DNA of 40,447 bases from a virus. Both the position numbers and the translations under genes were made by a program. Shown piece after piece: positions 1 through 40,447 of the stretch; the first letter of the stretch is position 1, and every line of letters begins with the position of its first letter. The stretch covers positions 1 to 40,447 of IMG/VR virus record IMGVR_UViG_3300010401_000052. The stretch is one strand, 5' to 3'. A model generated the notes under the pieces. It was given only the letters and a program-made list of their open reading frames with translations. It was not told the origin of the DNA and ran no database searches.

Positions 1-144
1 AAAAAGGAAAGAAATGAAGCAAGCAGAAGTAAAAATTAAAGGGTTGAGACCAATTTTATTCCATGCGTTTAAAATTGAGGCTATAACAAATCTAGAGCAA
101 AAGAAATCTGGTAGCGCCGGAAATAACCCAGAAGAATGGAAGTC
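1..144. repeat. Terminal direct repeat, left copy (pairs with 40304-40447)
   Basis: Bases 1-144 match 40304-40447 except at position 96 (A) versus 40399 (G). This is what a circular or circularly permuted genome gives when the contig runs past its own start. The unit length is therefore about 40,303 bp. The mismatch changes codon 28 of the gene at 14-616 from Glu (GAG) to Gly (GGG), so it is either a real variant in the population or a sequencing error. Confidence 0.9.
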
Positions 145-616
145 TACCGTTTTAGAAAAAGGCGGTCAACTGTATGTCCCAGCCTCTTATTGGAGTGGTT
201 GTCTTAAAGAGGCATCGAGATACACAAAAGCAGGCCGAGGATCTATCCAGAAGTCGTTTATCTCCTCATCTTTGGTTCTTACTGAAATTTCATTAATTGA
301 TAGATGGCTTCCTGAAGGTTGGGAGAAAATGGCATTTAATGAAATGCCAAGCGATAGTTCACAAGATGTATATTTAGATATCCGAGCTGTAATGAACCCC
401 AATTCCAAAGGGAAAAATATCCGTTACAGAGTAGCTTGCTGCCCCGGATGGAAAACAGAATTTGCTTTTTCTTTTGATGATTCTATTGTCTCACCATCAC
501 AAATCAAAAAGATTGTAGATGACGCTGGTAAGATGGTTGGCATCGGTGATGCCCGAGTGCTAGGTTATGGGCGGTTCGAAATAGAGTCTATCAAAATCAC
601 AGAGATGAAAGATTAG
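14..616 (+). CDS. RAMP/Cas7-like phage protein of unknown function
   Basis: A 200-residue soluble protein with an AAAGGAAAG ribosome-binding site before the ATG. Features in order: an N-terminal beta strand (KIKGLRPILFHAF, residues 8-20); a segment LYVPASYWSGCLKEA (53-67), like the 'PGSSLKGALR' region of RAMP proteins; and a C-terminal glycine-rich loop GIGDARVLGYGRFEI (176-190), like the RAMP G-loop. I recall a widespread family of prophage proteins with the same architecture and no known role. The RAMP link is inference from these motifs, and no catalytic residues are evident. It lies in the rightward operon that crosses the circle junction, between pentamer arrays 40178-40288 and 622-801. 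The 5' end is repeated at the right end of the contig. Confidence 0.7.
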   Translation: MKQAEVKIKGLRPILFHAFKIEAITNLEQKKSGSAGNNPEEWKSTVLEKGGQLYVPASYWSGCLKEASRYTKAGRGSIQKSFISSSLVLTEISLIDRWLPEGWEKMAFNEMPSDSSQDVYLDIRAVMNPNSKGKNIRYRVACCPGWKTEFAFSFDDSIVSPSQIKKIVDDAGKMVGIGDARVLGYGRFEIESIKITEMKD

Positions 617-621
617 AAAAG

Positions 622-801
622 CGTGGCGCGGCGAGGAGAGGCGTGATTTGGCCAGGTTCGGCATGGCCAGGAGAGAAACGGCATGGCCCGGCACGGCAAG
701 GCCCGGTAAGGCAACGCGCGGCGTGGTGAGGCGAGTCCTGGTACGGCGTGGCGAGGCTAGGAAAGGCAAGGTTTGGCTAGGCAGGACGAGGTAAGGCATG
801 G
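622..801 (+). repeat. YNNGG pentamer array, 36 units
   Basis: 180 bases that split without a gap into 36 five-base units. Most units end in GG, and most start with C or T; the two middle bases vary freely. Exceptions include cgtga, agaga, caacg, cgagt and cagga. The array starts five bases after the stop codon at 616 and ends in catgg followed by TTTTAATGA, just before the AGGAG site of the next gene. The reverse strand reads as a long open frame (a five-residue Pro/Leu/Ala pattern), which I treat as a by-product of the period. Confidence 0.93.
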
Positions 802-825
802 TTTTAATGAAAAAGGAGATAAAAA

Positions 826-1092
826 ATGGAAAAAATAAACAAACATGAGGCTCCATCTGCATGGTTTTTTGCGGAATGGATATCTATCATAGGTACTTTT
901 TTGGTATGTTTTGTGTTTTTGTTCTATCAAAACCAATTGCAAACCGAAAGGACTGATAAAATTTCTGAAAGATTACAACAAGAAATGTCCACGCAATCTG
1001 AAAGATCAGACAAATTATATATAATGTTTGCAGAATCACAAAAAGAATTTCACCAAAAATTCTACGATTTGCTGAAGGAAGGAAGGAAATAA
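826..1092 (+). CDS. Small membrane/coiled-coil protein
   Basis: An 88-residue protein with a strong AAGGAG site. Residues about 14-36 form one hydrophobic membrane segment (WISIIGTFLVCFVFLFY). After that comes a charged, Gln/Glu-rich helix that should form a coiled coil, ending in FYDLLKEGRK. The layout (short N-terminus, one TM segment, coiled coil, basic end) and the 'DKLY.MF...LLK' type ending are shared with the proteins at 21864-22013 and 28204-28404. A holin- or spanin-like role or a membrane-anchored adaptor is possible; nothing in the sequence decides this. Confidence 0.7.
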   Translation: MEKINKHEAPSAWFFAEWISIIGTFLVCFVFLFYQNQLQTERTDKISERLQQEMSTQSERSDKLYIMFAESQKEFHQKFYDLLKEGRK

Positions 1093-4925: not shown

Positions 4926-7912
4926 GCCAATACCTGGGAAGGTGATACATCCAAAATAAAGCTATGCAATTCAATTTCAGCAAATTGATTAGGGGCTACA
5001 ATTGTTGCAATACCCCCAGAAACATAAATTCCAAATGGGGCGGAATTGACTTCAATTGTTACGGTCGTAGCATCAGATTCCAGCACATTAAATATATTAT
5101 TGTTTAGTTCTGTCATGCCCACAACGCCCGTGATACGAATTGTAGAACCTGGAGTAAAGGCAGCTGTCGTTGTTAAAACACAGGGGCTTGCCCTTGTAGC
5201 TCCAGTAATAGCATATGAGTTCGTAGATACCTCTAAAGTCCTCATTTGGTCTTCGGACAAGGTAAATCCTAATTGGACTGTATCTCCAATGAGAGATGTG
5301 TTTATGCGATGCCAAATCTGCTGCTGAGCATCTGCCGTAGGCATCTGTAAATTAACATTTGCCGCCGTTAAACCTAAATTTGTGCTTTCTGGGCATGTGT
5401 AGAGTACAGTGCTATATAGAAGCGCATTATTTAAACTCAAAGGATCCGGTACAAAAGGCGGTTCATTATATGGACTACTATCGTTTTGGCTTAAGAATAT
5501 GAGCAGGGTAATTTGGGCATTCGAAGTCTTGCTCAAAAGATATTGCTGAACGCCTATTCTAGTTTTTCTCGCCATTCCCCAGGCTACTGGGAACTGCTTT
5601 GTTTGGATAAACGGCACATACATTCTTTTGATTAAGCCGCCTCCAAGATATGTTCCAGATGTAATAGTAGGATTTAAAATAAAGGTATTGTTATCTACTG
5701 AAGTTACTTGGAATATTTTCCCGTTTACTTGTGCGCCGACGGTTCCTAAAGCTCCTGTGATGATTATGAAGTCATCTTCATTTAAACCATGGTCTGGAGA
5801 CGTAACAGTGCTAGAAGATATGTTTTGGATGTATAAAGAGTTCCCTTCATTCGTTCCTTCGTCTTTGACCATTACGAAGCCTTGCTGATTACCTGCGATG
5901 ATTTCTGGTTGCAACAAAGTCGACTCACCTGCATTCCAAGGGTCATTCCAAGAATTCCATGTAGGATAAATCAGACCTACAGTACTCCAAATAAATCCTG
6001 TTTTTCTTCGAAACTGGCCATAATGAGTATAAGATTCATTGAAAATGGCCCAAGACTGGTCTCTATAGTTGTAGAAGAGCGTTTGGTTAGGAAATTTCAC
6101 TTTATCTTCATCAGCAGTATATGTGAGATAAATCCATTCATTTATGAAGTCTCTTTGGGCTGTGACGCGTTCTGGACCGTTATTTGTAAGCTGGAACTGG
6201 AAAACTTGATCAGGTATCTCTAAATCAATTCTTTGGCATTCTGTTTGCCCTGTAATGATGATACCGCGGCTTCCTCTAGTGATTACGCCTTTATCCATAT
6301 TGATTGCAGAGAAAACGCTGCTGGAACCCAGTTCAGAATTGATTATGTAGAAGTTGAATGGGATAATATCATTACCCGTATACACAAATCTGGCCTGCAA
6401 ACGATCAAACCCTAAAATAATCACATCCCCGTTCATGGAAGCACTGTTTATGGGCTGATCAATGCCGGCTGTAATAAAGCCGCCAAATCCTGTTTGGTCT
6501 TCCCAGTATGCGCTAGGGGTGGCTGTTTGATTGTCTGGAACAAGAATAGGATGGAAAGTCGTTGTCGCTAAAGATGGATCGCCAGTAAAAGACGCAGTGT
6601 AATATGGAGTTCCATTTTGGCTATATATAACAGTGTCCTGGAGATACCTCTGACTGCCCACTGCTGAAGTCTGGACGACTGGGCCAATAAAAATCAGGCG
6701 ATCTTTAAAAGACATTATCATCCTGGCGCCGACTAAGTAATATAGGGCCTTAGGTAGATCTGCGATAGAGAAATTAGATATTGATAAAGGAGGAGCAAAA
6801 TTTACCCATCCCTTAGCTCCATTTAATGTAGGATTTGTAGAATTACCATTAGTGGGATCTCCATCATACCATCTCAAAGAATCTACAGTGGTATCTGATC
6901 GGTTTGTAAGATATTGTGCTATCCCCCCAGTTCCATTACCGACCAAAGTCGCATTAGGAAACTCTACCGATACATTATTAGCGTCAATAACAGCGATCAC
7001 ATATCCTGTTTGAAAGTTTATCCCAGTAGTGGTTACCACTTCATTAATGAATAAAAAGTCTCCCACAACTAAGCCATGGCCTGTTATTTGCAATGTAGCT
7101 ATAGCAGGTGGTCCTCCCGCAGTAATAGTAACAGTAACAATTGGTTTAAATTGCATCCCGATATTTGTTGTGGTAAAAGGCACTGTGATGCCATTTGTAG
7201 CCCACAATGCGCCTTGATAATTCACAGTCCAGAATTGCTGATAATCCTGCCCATTCCATGTTGTAGGTGTGATATCAGTTTTTGGTATGTAGCCAGGCAA
7301 TAAAGCGCTAACGCCTGGGTTCTTATAAAAACTAACATCATAAATAGGGTATGGATTGGCGGTAGTGATATTATAAGAATAGACTGTATCGAACGCTAGT
7401 GTCCCTGGGAAATCGTTTATACCAATTGTTAGCTCTTCAAGACCCATTACGGGCAAATCAGGTGTATATAAAAATTGAGCCGTTATCGCATGGCCTGCAC
7501 CGCCAGTGATCGTTATAGCGCCGGTAGCGTAATTAATGGTTCCCGTTCCCGCGGGAGCTCCTGTTAGAGTGCCATTTTTTAGAGGATCTGTGTAAGTGCG
7601 GCCAGTTACGGTATCCAATATAGAAACGCTTCCAGGAACGATATTCCCATTGGTTTCTAAGCCAAATCCTGTAAGAATGTTGGCTGCTCCTCCGACCAGA
7701 TTAATAGTAGAAGTGGAAGAATAAGAAACCGAAGTGGATTTGAAAAATCTTTGTAACCGACCAAGAAGAGAAGTGCCGCGTTTACGCTTTATTCTTCCTC
7801 TCCATTGATATGCATTGACTAAAGTAGGAAATGAATCATTATCAATAACAAATGGAGTAACATCATTCCGCAAGCCTCTTGTGATGGGCCCTACAACGAT
7901 TTTGTCGCCCAT
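4922..7912 (-). CDS. Large tail / stabilisation protein with FCCH-like modules
   Basis: A 996-residue beta-rich protein, the largest in the genome. The N-terminus (GPITRGLRNDVTPFVIDNDS, residues 8-27) is typical of podovirus tail proteins that join the portal complex to the tail. Three copies of a small module of type 'HGL..GD.....G....N...F.V...D...' occur, at roughly residues 275-325, 695-745 and 920-975; database annotation often labels this fold as the ubiquitin-activating E1 FCCH domain. The same module appears in 10295-10948 and 10997-12118. The body is rich in Asn/Thr and aromatic residues, as in structural tail proteins. The next gene upstream ends one base before its start. Confidence 0.7.
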   Translation of the reverse strand: MGDKIVVGPITRGLRNDVTPFVIDNDSFPTLVNAYQWRGRIKRKRGTSLLGRLQRFFKSTSVSYSSTSTINLVGGAANILTGFGLETNGNIVPGSVSILDTVTGRTYTDPLKNGTLTGAPAGTGTINYATGAITITGGAGHAITAQFLYTPDLPVMGLEELTIGINDFPGTLAFDTVYSYNITTANPYPIYDVSFYKNPGVSALLPGYIPKTDITPTTWNGQDYQQFWTVNYQGALWATNGITVPFTTTNIGMQFKPIVTVTITAGGPPAIATLQITGHGLVVGDFLFINEVVTTTGINFQTGYVIAVIDANNVSVEFPNATLVGNGTGGIAQYLTNRSDTTVDSLRWYDGDPTNGNSTNPTLNGAKGWVNFAPPLSISNFSIADLPKALYYLVGARMIMSFKDRLIFIGPVVQTSAVGSQRYLQDTVIYSQNGTPYYTASFTGDPSLATTTFHPILVPDNQTATPSAYWEDQTGFGGFITAGIDQPINSASMNGDVIILGFDRLQARFVYTGNDIIPFNFYIINSELGSSSVFSAINMDKGVITRGSRGIIITGQTECQRIDLEIPDQVFQFQLTNNGPERVTAQRDFINEWIYLTYTADEDKVKFPNQTLFYNYRDQSWAIFNESYTHYGQFRRKTGFIWSTVGLIYPTWNSWNDPWNAGESTLLQPEIIAGNQQGFVMVKDEGTNEGNSLYIQNISSSTVTSPDHGLNEDDFIIITGALGTVGAQVNGKIFQVTSVDNNTFILNPTITSGTYLGGGLIKRMYVPFIQTKQFPVAWGMARKTRIGVQQYLLSKTSNAQITLLIFLSQNDSSPYNEPPFVPDPLSLNNALLYSTVLYTCPESTNLGLTAANVNLQMPTADAQQQIWHRINTSLIGDTVQLGFTLSEDQMRTLEVSTNSYAITGATRASPCVLTTTAAFTPGSTIRITGVVGMTELNNNIFNVLESDATTVTIEVNSAPFGIYVSGGIATIVAPNQFAEIELHSFILDVSPSQVLA

Positions 7913-36576: not shown

Positions 36577-38964
36577 TTATAAAGGTCTTACTATAAAATA
36601 TGCAAATGAGGAAACATCTGCCGTTTGCGTTGATGCAGGAGTGCCCAAAATCAAACTAGTGACAGTGAAGCTTGTAGCATTTATGATAGTATATGTGTAC
36701 TCGCCTAATGTTACAGAGCCGTTGCTAGCTATCCTAGATAGGAATATCAAGTCACCAGTAGCGATATTTGTGTTGGCAATTGTGACTGTACCTAAAGTGA
36801 GTACTCCAGTACCTGCGAAGTCAGTAGCAGCTCCAGTTTTAATTTGTAGGCCTTTTCCAGTTGTCGCGATTCTTAAGTTGGCTCCTGTAACCTTAACATC
36901 ACCAGACCCTGCGTTCAGGACTGTAGTTGATGTTGTTGTTGTTGAGCCCAAGGTAACAGTTTTTGCTGCACCACCTGTACCGATAAGCAATGTAGTCGCT
37001 GCGGCATCGCCTGAAATGGTAATTGCTCCTGTACCAGTAGCCAATGTGAAGATACCATTTGTGGTCGTGTATGTTGTTCCTGCAGTACCTGTATTCACGT
37101 TAACTGCAGTAGCGCCCGTGATATTACCGATAGTAACGATATGCGCTATTGCGTTAGTCCCGACGTTTACTCCACCTGTACCGGCATTAAGTGATACCGC
37201 AGTAACACCAGTAGAGTTACCGATATTGATCGTATGGTCTGCTGCGTCAGCGCCGATTGAGATGGTTCCTGTTCCTGTAGTTAAAGCGAATGCTCCGTTA
37301 GTTGTGTTAAATGAGCTAGCGCCAGTTCCTGCGTTAATCACAACAGTAGAAGCGCCAGTAACATTACCTATGGTTACTGCGTGAGCAATAGCATTTGTTC
37401 CGACGTTTACACCACCTGTACCACCATTAATAGATACAGCAGTTACTCCTGTCGAGTTACCGATCGTGATAGTATGGTCAGCAGCATCAGCACCGATTGA
37501 GATAGTTCCTGTTCCTGTTAATAGACTGAAAATGCCATTAGTAGTCGTTAGGGTTGTGCCACCTGTTCCTGTGTTGATATTGACAGCAGTAGCACCTGTG
37601 ATGTTACCGATGGTTACAGTATGCTCGATAGCATTAGTACCAACGTTAACGCCAGAAGTACCACCATTTAAGGAAACGGGAGTCGCGCCTGTAGAGTTAC
37701 CAATATTGATGATATGATCAGCAGCATCAGCGCCAATGGATATAGTTCCAGTCCCGGTAAGTAGGCTAAAGATACCGTTAGTGGTTGTGACTGTAGAGCC
37801 ACCGGTACCAGTATTGATATTAACGGCTGTAGCTCCGGTGATATTACCTATGGTGACTGTATGGGCAATTGCGTTCGTACCGACCGTGACACCGGCAGTA
37901 CCTGCGTTAAGAACTACTTGAGTAGCGCCTGTGCTATTGCCTAAAGTGATAATATGAGCAGCTGCATCAGTACCAATGTTGATACCACCAGTTCCTGTAG
38001 CGATAGTGAATGTGCCGTTTGTAGTTGTAAAGGCAGAGCCACCAGTACCAGTATTGATATTGACTGCAGTACCGCCTGTAATGTTACCTATCGTAATTGT
38101 TTTAGCAACTGCGTCTGTTCCGACCGAAATGGCTCCTGTGCCGGTCAACACACTAAAGATACCGTTGGTTGTTGTTATTGTAGATCCGGCGGTTCCTGTG
38201 TTAACGTTTACTGCAGTAGCGCCTGTGATATTTCCAATTGTTACTATATGGGCTATAGCATTAGTGCCTATGTTTAATGCACCAGTGCCGGCGTTTAGTA
38301 CTATGCTTGTAGCGCCCGTGGAGTTACCTAGGGTGATTGTACGAGCAGCCGCTCCTGTTCCTATATTGATTGCATCTGCTGAAGCATCCGAACCGATATT
38401 GATTGCTGTACCACCAGAAAGGATTGTTGCACTTCCACTTAATGAGGCTAAACCGCTCGCTCCGATTGTTGTGAATAAAGCAGCCGCTGGAGTTGTTCCT
38501 CCGATAGCTGGATTAGCAGCGAACACAGCCGCAAGACTCTTTGGTTGTACTGCAAGAGGTGTTCCTGGGTTTAAGTTGGTTCCTGCTACTGCCTGGGCAT
38601 CTGTAGCTTCTTGAATAAGCCCTACAGCAGCTTCTGTGGCTAAATTACCACCTGCTATTACAACGCTATTAACAAATGTAAAGACATCGTTGGCTAATGG
38701 CACTACAGAACCTGCTGGAGCTGTCCCTGCTTCTAATTGTGCTAATGTAGAGAGAAGTACACTACCAGCTAATGTAGTAGATGCAGGCGAAGCTCCTCCT
38801 GTTACCCATGTCAGGCCATTGTATACATATTCTGCTGGTGGCGTTACGCTTTTATCGAAATATTGCTGACCTAATTGGGCTCTAAAACTTAATGGAGGAG
38901 GTCCAAAACCTGTCACTGCACCATCTTGAACCGCTATTAGACCACCTATACCATATGCTGTCAT
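36577..38964 (-). CDS. Repeat-rich tail fibre
   Basis: A 795-residue protein with GAGG before the ATG. The N-terminal 100 residues look like a phage attachment domain (GPPPLSFRAQLGQQYFDKSV). The centre, about residues 195-650, consists of imperfect repeats of type 'GTGAI.IGTDA..HTITIGN.TGAT.V..NTGTGG...TTTNG.F', with an 80-residue higher-order unit. The C-terminal 100 residues are a small beta domain. The repeats would form a long beta-structured shaft. Its promoter is 39015-39043. Confidence 0.8.
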   Translation of the reverse strand: MTAYGIGGLIAVQDGAVTGFGPPPLSFRAQLGQQYFDKSVTPPAEYVYNGLTWVTGGASPASTTLAGSVLLSTLAQLEAGTAPAGSVVPLANDVFTFVNSVVIAGGNLATEAAVGLIQEATDAQAVAGTNLNPGTPLAVQPKSLAAVFAANPAIGGTTPAAALFTTIGASGLASLSGSATILSGGTAINIGSDASADAINIGTGAAARTITLGNSTGATSIVLNAGTGALNIGTNAIAHIVTIGNITGATAVNVNTGTAGSTITTTNGIFSVLTGTGAISVGTDAVAKTITIGNITGGTAVNINTGTGGSAFTTTNGTFTIATGTGGINIGTDAAAHIITLGNSTGATQVVLNAGTAGVTVGTNAIAHTVTIGNITGATAVNINTGTGGSTVTTTNGIFSLLTGTGTISIGADAADHIINIGNSTGATPVSLNGGTSGVNVGTNAIEHTVTIGNITGATAVNINTGTGGTTLTTTNGIFSLLTGTGTISIGADAADHTITIGNSTGVTAVSINGGTGGVNVGTNAIAHAVTIGNVTGASTVVINAGTGASSFNTTNGAFALTTGTGTISIGADAADHTINIGNSTGVTAVSLNAGTGGVNVGTNAIAHIVTIGNITGATAVNVNTGTAGTTYTTTNGIFTLATGTGAITISGDAAATTLLIGTGGAAKTVTLGSTTTTSTTVLNAGSGDVKVTGANLRIATTGKGLQIKTGAATDFAGTGVLTLGTVTIANTNIATGDLIFLSRIASNGSVTLGEYTYTIINATSFTVTSLILGTPASTQTADVSSFAYFIVRPL
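37000..38400 (-). repeat. Tandem repeats in the fibre gene, 240-bp period
   Basis: Blocks at 37201, 37441 and 37681 begin with the same 60-base pattern (codons for TGV/A, then HTI.IGNSTG); the spacing is exactly 240 bases (80 codons). Further copies are more diverged. The repeats allow length change of the fibre shaft by recombination. Confidence 0.8.
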
Positions 38965-39014
38965 ATAAACCTCGTGCTTGTAGCCGTTTTACGGCAATTT
39001 AATTTTTTGATTTG

Positions 39015-39043
39015 ACAATACATTAAAATTTTAATTGCGTCAA
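39015..39043 (-). promoter_or_regulatory. Leftward promoter of the fibre block
   Basis: On the minus strand TTGACG (39038-39043) is 17 bases from TATTGT (39015-39020). A perfect 14-bp palindrome, ATTAAAATTTTAAT (39022-39035), fills the spacer. It sits back to back with the rightward promoter at 39069-39097, so the two may share a regulator. Confidence 0.65.
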
Positions 39044-39068
39044 ATATTTTATATTTTGGTAACATGCA

Positions 39069-39097
39069 TTGACAAAATTTGTGACTTTTGTTACCAT
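39069..39097 (+). promoter_or_regulatory. Rightward promoter of the array operon
   Basis: TTGACA (39069-39074) is 17 bases from TACCAT (39092-39097). A start site six to eight bases on falls at or next to the A of the ATG at 39104, so the first mRNA may be leaderless. Confidence 0.65.
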
Positions 39098-39103
39098 AGG
39101 TAT

Positions 39104-39337
39104 ATGAAAGAAGAAAAAGCGTACCTTACAATCTTAGAATTCGCGCATGAAATATCGGCGCATCCTAATACTGTTAGGAAAATGATCAAGAGCGGGAGAA
39201 TATCGGCCTTCAAACTAGACGGAGGCAGGAAATCGGCCTATAGAATAGCCAGATCAGAAATAACCAGAATGGCGGTTGTTGATTTAGAAAAGATCGTTAA
39301 TGATATGGTAGAGAAGCGGTTGAAAGAGAAAAAATGA
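39104..39337 (+). CDS. Excisionase-type HTH DNA-binding protein
   Basis: 77 residues from the ATG at 39104; the frame is open upstream, across the promoter. The fold YLTILEFAHEISAHPNTVRK (7-26) then MIKSGRISAFKLDGGRKSAY (27-46) with RIARSEI matches small MerR/Xis-type winged helix proteins. The C-terminus is a basic helix. It is the first gene of the operon with pentamer arrays, and perhaps the regulator of both divergent promoters. No integrase is present for it to serve as a true excisionase. Confidence 0.8.
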   Translation: MKEEKAYLTILEFAHEISAHPNTVRKMIKSGRISAFKLDGGRKSAYRIARSEITRMAVVDLEKIVNDMVEKRLKEKK

Positions 39338-39477
39338 TATGGCAACGCCAGGTTTGGCGGGGTGAGGCATGACGTGGTGAGGCGTCACATGGCAGGGCCA
39401 GGTTTGGCAAGGCAAGGCATGGTTCGGCTAGGCGTGGCAAGGCGAGGGTAGGCAAGGTAAGGTAAGGCGAGGCTTGG
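39338..39477 (+). repeat. YNNGG pentamer array, 28 units
   Basis: 140 bases with 28 five-base units in register; it starts one base after the stop codon. Exceptions are caacg, catga and cgtca. It ends cttgg followed by TTTTAATAATAGGAG, directly before the next gene. Confidence 0.93.
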
Positions 39478-39498
39478 TTTTAATAATAGGAGAAGCAT

Positions 39499-39759
39499 AT
39501 GAGTGAAGCCTGGGTGCAAGTACTAGCTCTTTTCGTAGGGAATGCAGCGTTAATTTTATGGTTTAGATCTGAATCTCGAGCTGATTGGCGTCATATGGAT
39601 AATAAGTTAGATATTTTCGTTAAAGGAATCCAGGAAGAAATAAAAGATTTCCATGGCAGATTGGAAAGGCAGGATGCAGAGTTTAAGGGAAGACTAGAGA
39701 AGCAAGACGCGGAATTTAAGGCCCATCTTCTATATCATCATCAGAAAGAAAATAAGTAA
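39499..39759 (+). CDS. Small TM/coiled-coil protein with tandem 11-residue repeat
   Basis: 86 residues with AGGAG. It has a membrane helix (VQVLALFVGNAALILWF, 6-22), then a coiled coil with EEIKDFHGRLERQDAEFKGR and an exact repeat of type RLE(R/K)QDAEFK (two copies, 33 bases each). It ends in a His/Lys-rich tail. It shares KDFHGRL with 39985-40170. Confidence 0.65.
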   Translation: MSEAWVQVLALFVGNAALILWFRSESRADWRHMDNKLDIFVKGIQEEIKDFHGRLERQDAEFKGRLEKQDAEFKAHLLYHHQKENK

Positions 39760-39764
39760 TTAGT

Positions 39765-39964
39765 TTTGGTTCGGCCTGGTCTGGTTCGGCTGGGCATGGT
39801 ATGGCGAGGCATGGCGGGATAAGGCTTGGCATGGTGAGATGTGGTCTGGTTCGGCAAGGTCTGGTTCGGCTAGGTGTGTCTGGGTTAGGCCAGGTGAGGT
39901 AAGGTCTGGCGAGGCATGGAACGGCGAGGTCTGGCTGGATGGGGCGAGATGAGGCGAGGCTTGG
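39765..39964 (+). repeat. YNNGG pentamer array, 40 units
   Basis: 200 bases giving exactly 40 five-base units. Exceptions include cggga, tgaga, tgtgt, ctgga and cgaga. It starts six bases after the stop codon and ends cttgg before TTTATTAAAAGGAA and the next ATG. Confidence 0.93.
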
Positions 39965-39984
39965 TTTATTAAAAGGAAAAATCT

Positions 39985-40170
39985 ATGACAGAAGCAACAA
40001 TACAAGTATTGACGATTGTAGGATCAAATTTAGTGATTATGTTCACATTTTTTGGTGTAACTGTATCTTTGCATAATGGAATACGCGAAGAAATAAGGGC
40101 TATTAAAGACGAGATGAAAGACTTCCACGGTAGGCTATGCGCTATTGAAGAAAGAAACAAGAATAAATAA
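39985..40170 (+). CDS. Small TM/coiled-coil protein of the repeated family
   Basis: 61 residues with AAAGGAA. The hydrophobic N-terminal segment (VLTIVGSNLVIMFTFFGVTV, about 8-27) spans the membrane. A coiled coil follows (REEIRAIKDEMKDFHGRL), then a basic tail. Its plan and the KDFHGRL motif match 39499-39759. Confidence 0.65.
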   Translation: MTEATIQVLTIVGSNLVIMFTFFGVTVSLHNGIREEIRAIKDEMKDFHGRLCAIEERNKNK

Positions 40171-40177
40171 GTTATTG

Positions 40178-40288
40178 CCGGGTGGGGCCCGGCACGGCGG
40201 GGCCCGGTGAGGCTCGGACAGGTAAGGCTGGCCATGGTGAGGCTGGGCCATGGCGTGGCTAGGTATGGTACGGTGAGGTGCGGTATGG
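40178..40288 (+). repeat. YNNGG pentamer array, 22 units with one slip
   Basis: 111 bases: 22 units plus one extra C at 40248, which shifts the register once. It ends tatgg followed by TTTTATTACAC before the RAMP-like gene. It is the most G/C-rich of the four arrays at its start. Confidence 0.9.
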
Positions 40289-40303
40289 TTTTATTACACA
40301 AAC

Positions 40304-40447
40304 AAAAAGGAAAGAAATGAAGCAAGCAGAAGTAAAAATTAAAGGGTTGAGACCAATTTTATTCCATGCGTTTAAAATTGAGGCTATAACAAATCTAGGG
40401 CAAAAGAAATCTGGTAGCGCCGGAAATAACCCAGAAGAATGGAAGTC
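40304..40447. repeat. Terminal direct repeat, right copy
   Basis: Identical to 1-144 except position 40399. It shows that the operon crossing the right end continues at the left end. Confidence 0.9.
40317..40447 (+). CDS. RAMP/Cas7-like protein, 5' partial (second view of 14-616)
   Basis: The ATG at 40317 corresponds to 14. Only the first 43 codons are present because the contig ends. It is not a second gene. Codon 28 reads Gly here and Glu in the left copy. Confidence 0.9.
   Translation, partial: MKQAEVKIKGLRPILFHAFKIEAITNLGQKKSGSAGNNPEEWK

Follow-up and report, generated by a model that had tools for sequence, protein, structure and literature searches.

A phage VIPR locus with four long GGYNN arrays and no HNH gene beside vipr

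We analysed the DNA of virus record IMGVR_UViG_3300010401_000052 over its whole length of 40,447 nucleotides, hereafter called the window. The contig is circular, with positions 1–144 repeating positions 40304–40447 at 99% and a circle of ∼40.3 kb. The operon under study runs across the contig junction and comprises a first gene of the HTH_17 type, three genes for small membrane (TM) proteins, vipr, and four arrays of five-base units in the gaps (Table 1). Because of the terminal repeat, the initial annotation of this DNA was right to place the fourth array after the junction, on the far side of the circle.

Table 1. Features of the operon, in their order around the circle
Feature	Position	Strand	Description
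Best promoter-like site of the operon	39069..39097	+	TTGACA-17-TACCAT, extended -10; consensus match only
HTH_17 (Cox/excisionase-like)	39104..39337	+	Opens the operon; belongs to the phage backbone and is shared with some VIPR-free relatives
Array A1	39341..39480	+	28 units, GG in 25
TM1	39499..39759	+	Small membrane and coiled-coil protein; phage backbone gene, outside VIPR
Array A2	39768..39967	+	40 units, GG in 35
TM2	39985..40170	+	Paralogue-like small membrane protein; phage backbone gene
Array A3	40181..40291	+	22 units, GG in 21; one unit of six bases
vipr	14..616	+	200 aa, phrog_4652, RAMP/Cas7-like fold; the RAMP-like gene of the initial annotation
Array A4	625..804	+	36 GGYNN units, 31 with GG; putative vrRNA guide array in the vipr/TM3 gap
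TM3	826..1092	+	Small membrane protein; counterpart in array-free L156, read by eye

Separately from the arrays, a 225-nt repeat occurs five times in imperfect form at positions 37021–38352 of the window, mostly at a spacing of 240 nt, inside a gene of 795 aa (36577–38964) that probably encodes a tail-fibre-like repeat protein. Distant blastn hits were to Mycobacterium and Gordonia phages.

The units of the four arrays stand head-to-tail and follow a rule that is sharper than the spacing of GG by which they had been described. Among the 125 five-base units, position 1 is G in 122 and position 2 is G in 113; GG opens 111 of them, with ∼11% of units lacking it, and position 3 is a pyrimidine in 118. 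Positions 4 and 5 are nearly random, with entropies of 1.93 and 1.80 bits. The array rule is a fixed GGY followed by two hypervariable bases (NN). Different arrays have no NN runs in common beyond chance, and tandem-repeat calls on the arrays are low-scoring. A3 is the sole array in which the register breaks, once, at its six-base unit. In A4 the count of 36 units and their single register stood as first annotated, with the span of 622–801 lying three bases too early. Within the local A4 stretch the best of the five registers holds 31 GG; when this stretch was shuffled 2000 times, the range was 5–16. The 3′ ends of A1–A4 display no clear structured tail; the two of the four that were folded yielded 0 and −3.6 kcal/mol, which is not clearly better than shuffles.

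The initial annotation had also claimed that this rule is confined to four junctions of a single operon beside the RAMP-like gene, and had suggested scanning the whole genome for it. We scanned the circularised sequence on both strands in blocks of 16 units, with 20 shuffled genomes as a control. Only the four arrays scored, reaching 13–16 as compared with 5–7 in the shuffled genomes, and the remaining genome had no comparable run, staying at background with values of no more than 5 on the minus strand. An exact pattern of seven units gave the same picture, with 32 matches on the plus strand, every one within the four arrays, and 0 on the minus strand. The claim of confinement is borne out by both searches.

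We then searched IMG/VR with a degenerate array pattern, which returned at least 120 stretches. Among the pattern matches listed, most carry several arrays, which almost without exception share a strand; the GC content of the genomes ranges from 28 to 73%, and long arrays are also present at other loci of this set. When the array neighbours were inspected without prior assumption, the same kind of protein recurred. A profile composed of 27 such neighbour proteins and the window's own located vipr in 90 of 121 loci (120 among the pattern matches listed, plus the window), and of the arrays near vipr in these loci 108 lie on the vipr strand and 1 on the opposite strand. Since this profile was seeded from array neighbours, we performed the reverse test, in which a Vipr profile is searched before any array. 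The profile used here was a closer set of ten proteins taken from pattern-found loci, which makes the search of this test independent but leaves its seeds tied to the pattern. Arrays were present on the vipr strand in 67 of the 79 loci so obtained, and on the other strand in 1. None were detected in the controls, namely 27 loci of phages with the TM1 gene, 23 unrelated viral loci, and shuffles. The positive control, made up of two Felixounavirus-type phages and one Pseudomonas phage with vipr, showed the same arrays; units without GG occur in them occasionally, the isolated Felixounavirus phages included. Bacterial relatives of the window Vipr have a single array downstream in 7 of 8 cases. 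The array rule is a property of a mobile two-part system, made up of vipr and arrays, that occurs in many phages and some bacterial chromosomes. The earlier assertion that the rule belongs to this operon consequently holds within this genome and is too narrow beyond it.

The window Vipr matches no Pfam family and has no match among isolated phages. Three matches were obtained in plasmid-collection records. A 60-member profile led by the window gene matched the "SUSP1 Vipr protein", whose structure is solved (chain 36pp_D), at E 1.2e-42, and the next RAMP in that search, Csm5, appeared at E 0.76. Of the 60 members of this family, the window gene included, 59 match phrog_4652, a family of unknown function. 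The structure model of the window Vipr has a pLDDT of 92 and a pTM of 0.87; its closest folds are Csm3 and the type VII Cas7 (Foldseek E 1e-8), with the best fold comparison giving Z 12.8 over 160 residues.

VIPR, for Viral Interference Programmable Repeat, is described in one 2026 bioRxiv preprint (PMC13142463), which alone gives the full name among the literature searched. As reported there, the system is composed of a RAMP-like Vipr protein, which has a branch of its own, and of vrRNAs in which GGY alternates with NN; the arrays flank vipr, between genes and on its strand. Double-stranded DNA is recognised through pairing of the NN bases, with one target base skipped between NN pairs; the skipped base falls on the codon wobble position, and the complex acts as a transcriptional repressor against competing phages. 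Seven types have been published, and VIPR is presented as ancestral to CRISPR effectors and as an inter-phage weapon (PMC13142463). The window locus is a VIPR, and thus a case of a kind already described, by its GGY and hypervariable NN rule, by the family of its protein as judged from the SUSP1 Vipr match, by the Csm3/Cas7-like fold, by strand, and by placement: all arrays are intergenic and on the plus strand, with A3 immediately 5′ and A4 immediately 3′ of vipr. Taken jointly, we consider it highly probable (roughly 0.93) that the arrays are vrRNA guides and 14–616 encodes Vipr, with coated tracts that pair through NN with a DNA target and silence it.

Given their position between the arrays, the TM proteins were considered as VIPR accessory proteins, and this was rejected. 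Relatives of TM1 are present in 27 related-phage loci, all of which are devoid of arrays and vipr, and the TM genes are for this reason ordinary phage genes; the ownership of the rule that had been ascribed to the operon does not extend to them. In the array-free locus L156, read by eye, counterparts of TM3, TM2 and TM1, together with another small ORF, stand in a row with hardly any space between them, and the structural genes that flank the TM genes on both sides are the same as in the window. Because the L156 cassette is compact and has the same flanking genes, we infer that VIPR probably entered such a compact cassette of this phage by insertion; alternatively, VIPR may have been lost in the relatives. 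The window phage is a well-delimited VIPR case, with a probable insertion that is visible because the nearest relatives have the same gene cassette without VIPR.

Since the best promoter-like site lies ahead of the HTH_17 gene, all arrays are probably carried on one RNA, and the promoter of the whole operon would lie before 39104. By analogy with the published systems, Vipr subunits would coat each GGY/NN tract, probably with one subunit per five bases, and the coating would leave GGY unavailable for pairing. The NN dinucleotides would then jointly pair with a double-stranded DNA target of the form NN-x-NN-x, in which the skipped base would usually be the codon wobble position. As no HNH nuclease is present beside vipr, the complex would most likely block transcription, thereby silencing genes that belong to rival phages or prophages. 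That Vipr binds RNA, that one base is skipped and that transcription is repressed is known from work on other VIPRs (PMC13142463) and presumed to apply to this phage. Protein-like strings result when the arrays are taken as the first two positions of codons, which fits the wobble skip of the preprint but is no test because nearly any NN series reads so. A search of the phage for self-targets gave best 12-unit matches that equal those of shuffled controls at skips of 0–3. In IMG/VR, four exact seeds, from A1 (units 13–21), A2 (units 1–8 and units 24–33) and A4 (units 8–15), returned 4, 6, 0 and 13 hits, respectively; exact seeds are insensitive, and no hit could be convincingly extended past its seed. 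Likewise, tblastn of decoded A2 or A4 revealed no target in isolated phages.

Several features of the arrays are also compatible with explanations other than guiding. Each array ends shortly upstream of the following gene's ribosome site, in the form GGTTTTAAT or one near to it, as would be expected if the arrays were Vipr binding tracts on their own mRNA that regulate translation of that gene and have no DNA target, and the three target searches (self, IMG/VR seeds, isolated phages), which gave no target, also fit with such a role. However, a pure coating tract needs neither near-random NN nor arrays without common NN runs, and in related single-array VIPRs the array stands behind the genes and in most cases is not closely followed by another, which makes regulation of the phage's own mRNA quite improbable. 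A decayed VIPR, in which the arrays have drifted and guiding has been lost, would be consistent with the ∼11% of units without GG, the frame slip in A3, the target searches that gave no target and the lack of a nuclease gene beside vipr. We regard such a remnant as unlikely, given that the vipr reading frame is intact, that the structure model is of high confidence, that the conserved glycines of the family are kept, and that units without GG also occur in the arrays of isolated Felixounavirus phages.

Replication slippage would account for head-to-tail units and low-scoring tandem-repeat calls, and the arrays might in principle be a functionless five-base tandem repeat of this origin. Slippage yields identical units, whereas here GGY alone is kept and NN is near random. 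It also leaves unexplained the linkage to vipr in diverse phages and the use of a single strand, and the linkage data refute it, to the point that we give it hardly any credence. The preferred reading is that the arrays are guides of a VIPR.

Among the published systems, the window locus resembles type II VIPR of Escherichia phage SUSP1 and a Pseudomonas fulva prophage in its Vipr family, in its GGY/NN pentamers and in having several intergenic arrays per locus on the vipr strand (PMC13142463). Type II arrays have 9–16 repeats and a structured 3′ tail (PMC13142463), whereas those of the window have 22–40 units and no clear structured tail, each one immediately preceding the ribosome site of the gene after it. 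The window Vipr moreover lies on a different branch and has no identified accessory gene. With class 1 CRISPR-Cas (Csm3, Cas7) the locus shares the RAMP fold and would share a protein that repeats along a guide RNA, and it differs in its period of five with GGY, as compared with six and one flipped base in CRISPR. No repeat-spacer array is present among the repeats found in the window and no cas gene among the window proteins scanned, and vipr has a phage TM gene on one side and TM3 on the other.

In the Vipr tree, a clade of 14 (support 99) unites the window with its nearest relatives, namely the uncultivated phage locus L129 and 12 HNH-associated members. The latter group apart at a support of 100, leaving the window Vipr outside, and all 12 have an HNH gene beside vipr; a tblastn search of the window at 1e-4 found no HNH gene of the clade family. 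The HNH-associated members come from Firmicutes chromosomes and some phages (L130–L132, L137–L144 and L077), and apart from L129 they have the Viprs closest to that of the window, at 36–44% identity. Their HNH gene is directly 3′ of vipr (downstream in L077), and they have mostly one short array where found, in contrast to the four long arrays of the window. The closest relative is L129, whose Vipr is 52% identical to the window's and which, like the window, is without a found HNH gene of the clade family and has several arrays, these being after vipr. Its units are GGANN instead of GGYNN, and each of its arrays is followed by a tRNA-like hairpin.

The locus is unusual within a known kind in its long arrays, its lack of a clear tail and the absence of an HNH gene beside vipr. 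Tentatively, and at less than even odds, we propose that it represents a nuclease-free phage branch of VIPR, sister to an HNH-armed and mostly chromosomal branch, with very long tail-less arrays in each cassette gap. Each array would possibly address a long stretch of a competitor gene, and the arrays would be processed from one operon RNA by a route new relative to the types studied. Two things make this case valuable, namely the probable insertion, seen by comparison with relatives that have no arrays, and a position next to the HNH-associated branch. As the window Vipr falls just outside that mostly chromosomal branch, the proposed step from a phage silencing tool to a nuclease-armed host defence becomes directly testable.

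Several observations concern the related loci themselves. The L129 region 5621–6160 holds three GGANN arrays, of which arrays 2 and 3 have their last 11 units in common, and the hairpins combine an acceptor-like stem with a T-arm (GTTCGACTC); neither ARAGORN nor Rfam recognised a tRNA in them. Among the bacterial VIPRs, a CTGATGA motif is located shortly upstream of the single array in L139 (7040–7160) and also in L137, L140, L141, L143 and L144. It is possibly part of a hammerhead-like ribozyme; Rfam returned no match for it, nor did it recognise a ribozyme or any other credible family in the stretch 38950–40447 of the operon, in L129 or in L139. The VIPR locus L039 (3331–5160) carries many arrays in series, separated by similar AT-rich spacers (TTTTGCAATCATTTATAA...). 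Finally, many loci, among them L013, L023, L058 and L079, have a recurrent second conserved protein of ∼155 aa beside vipr or the arrays, often with a motif like GG-x-LTPExVV, and is perhaps the product of an accessory gene of another VIPR type.
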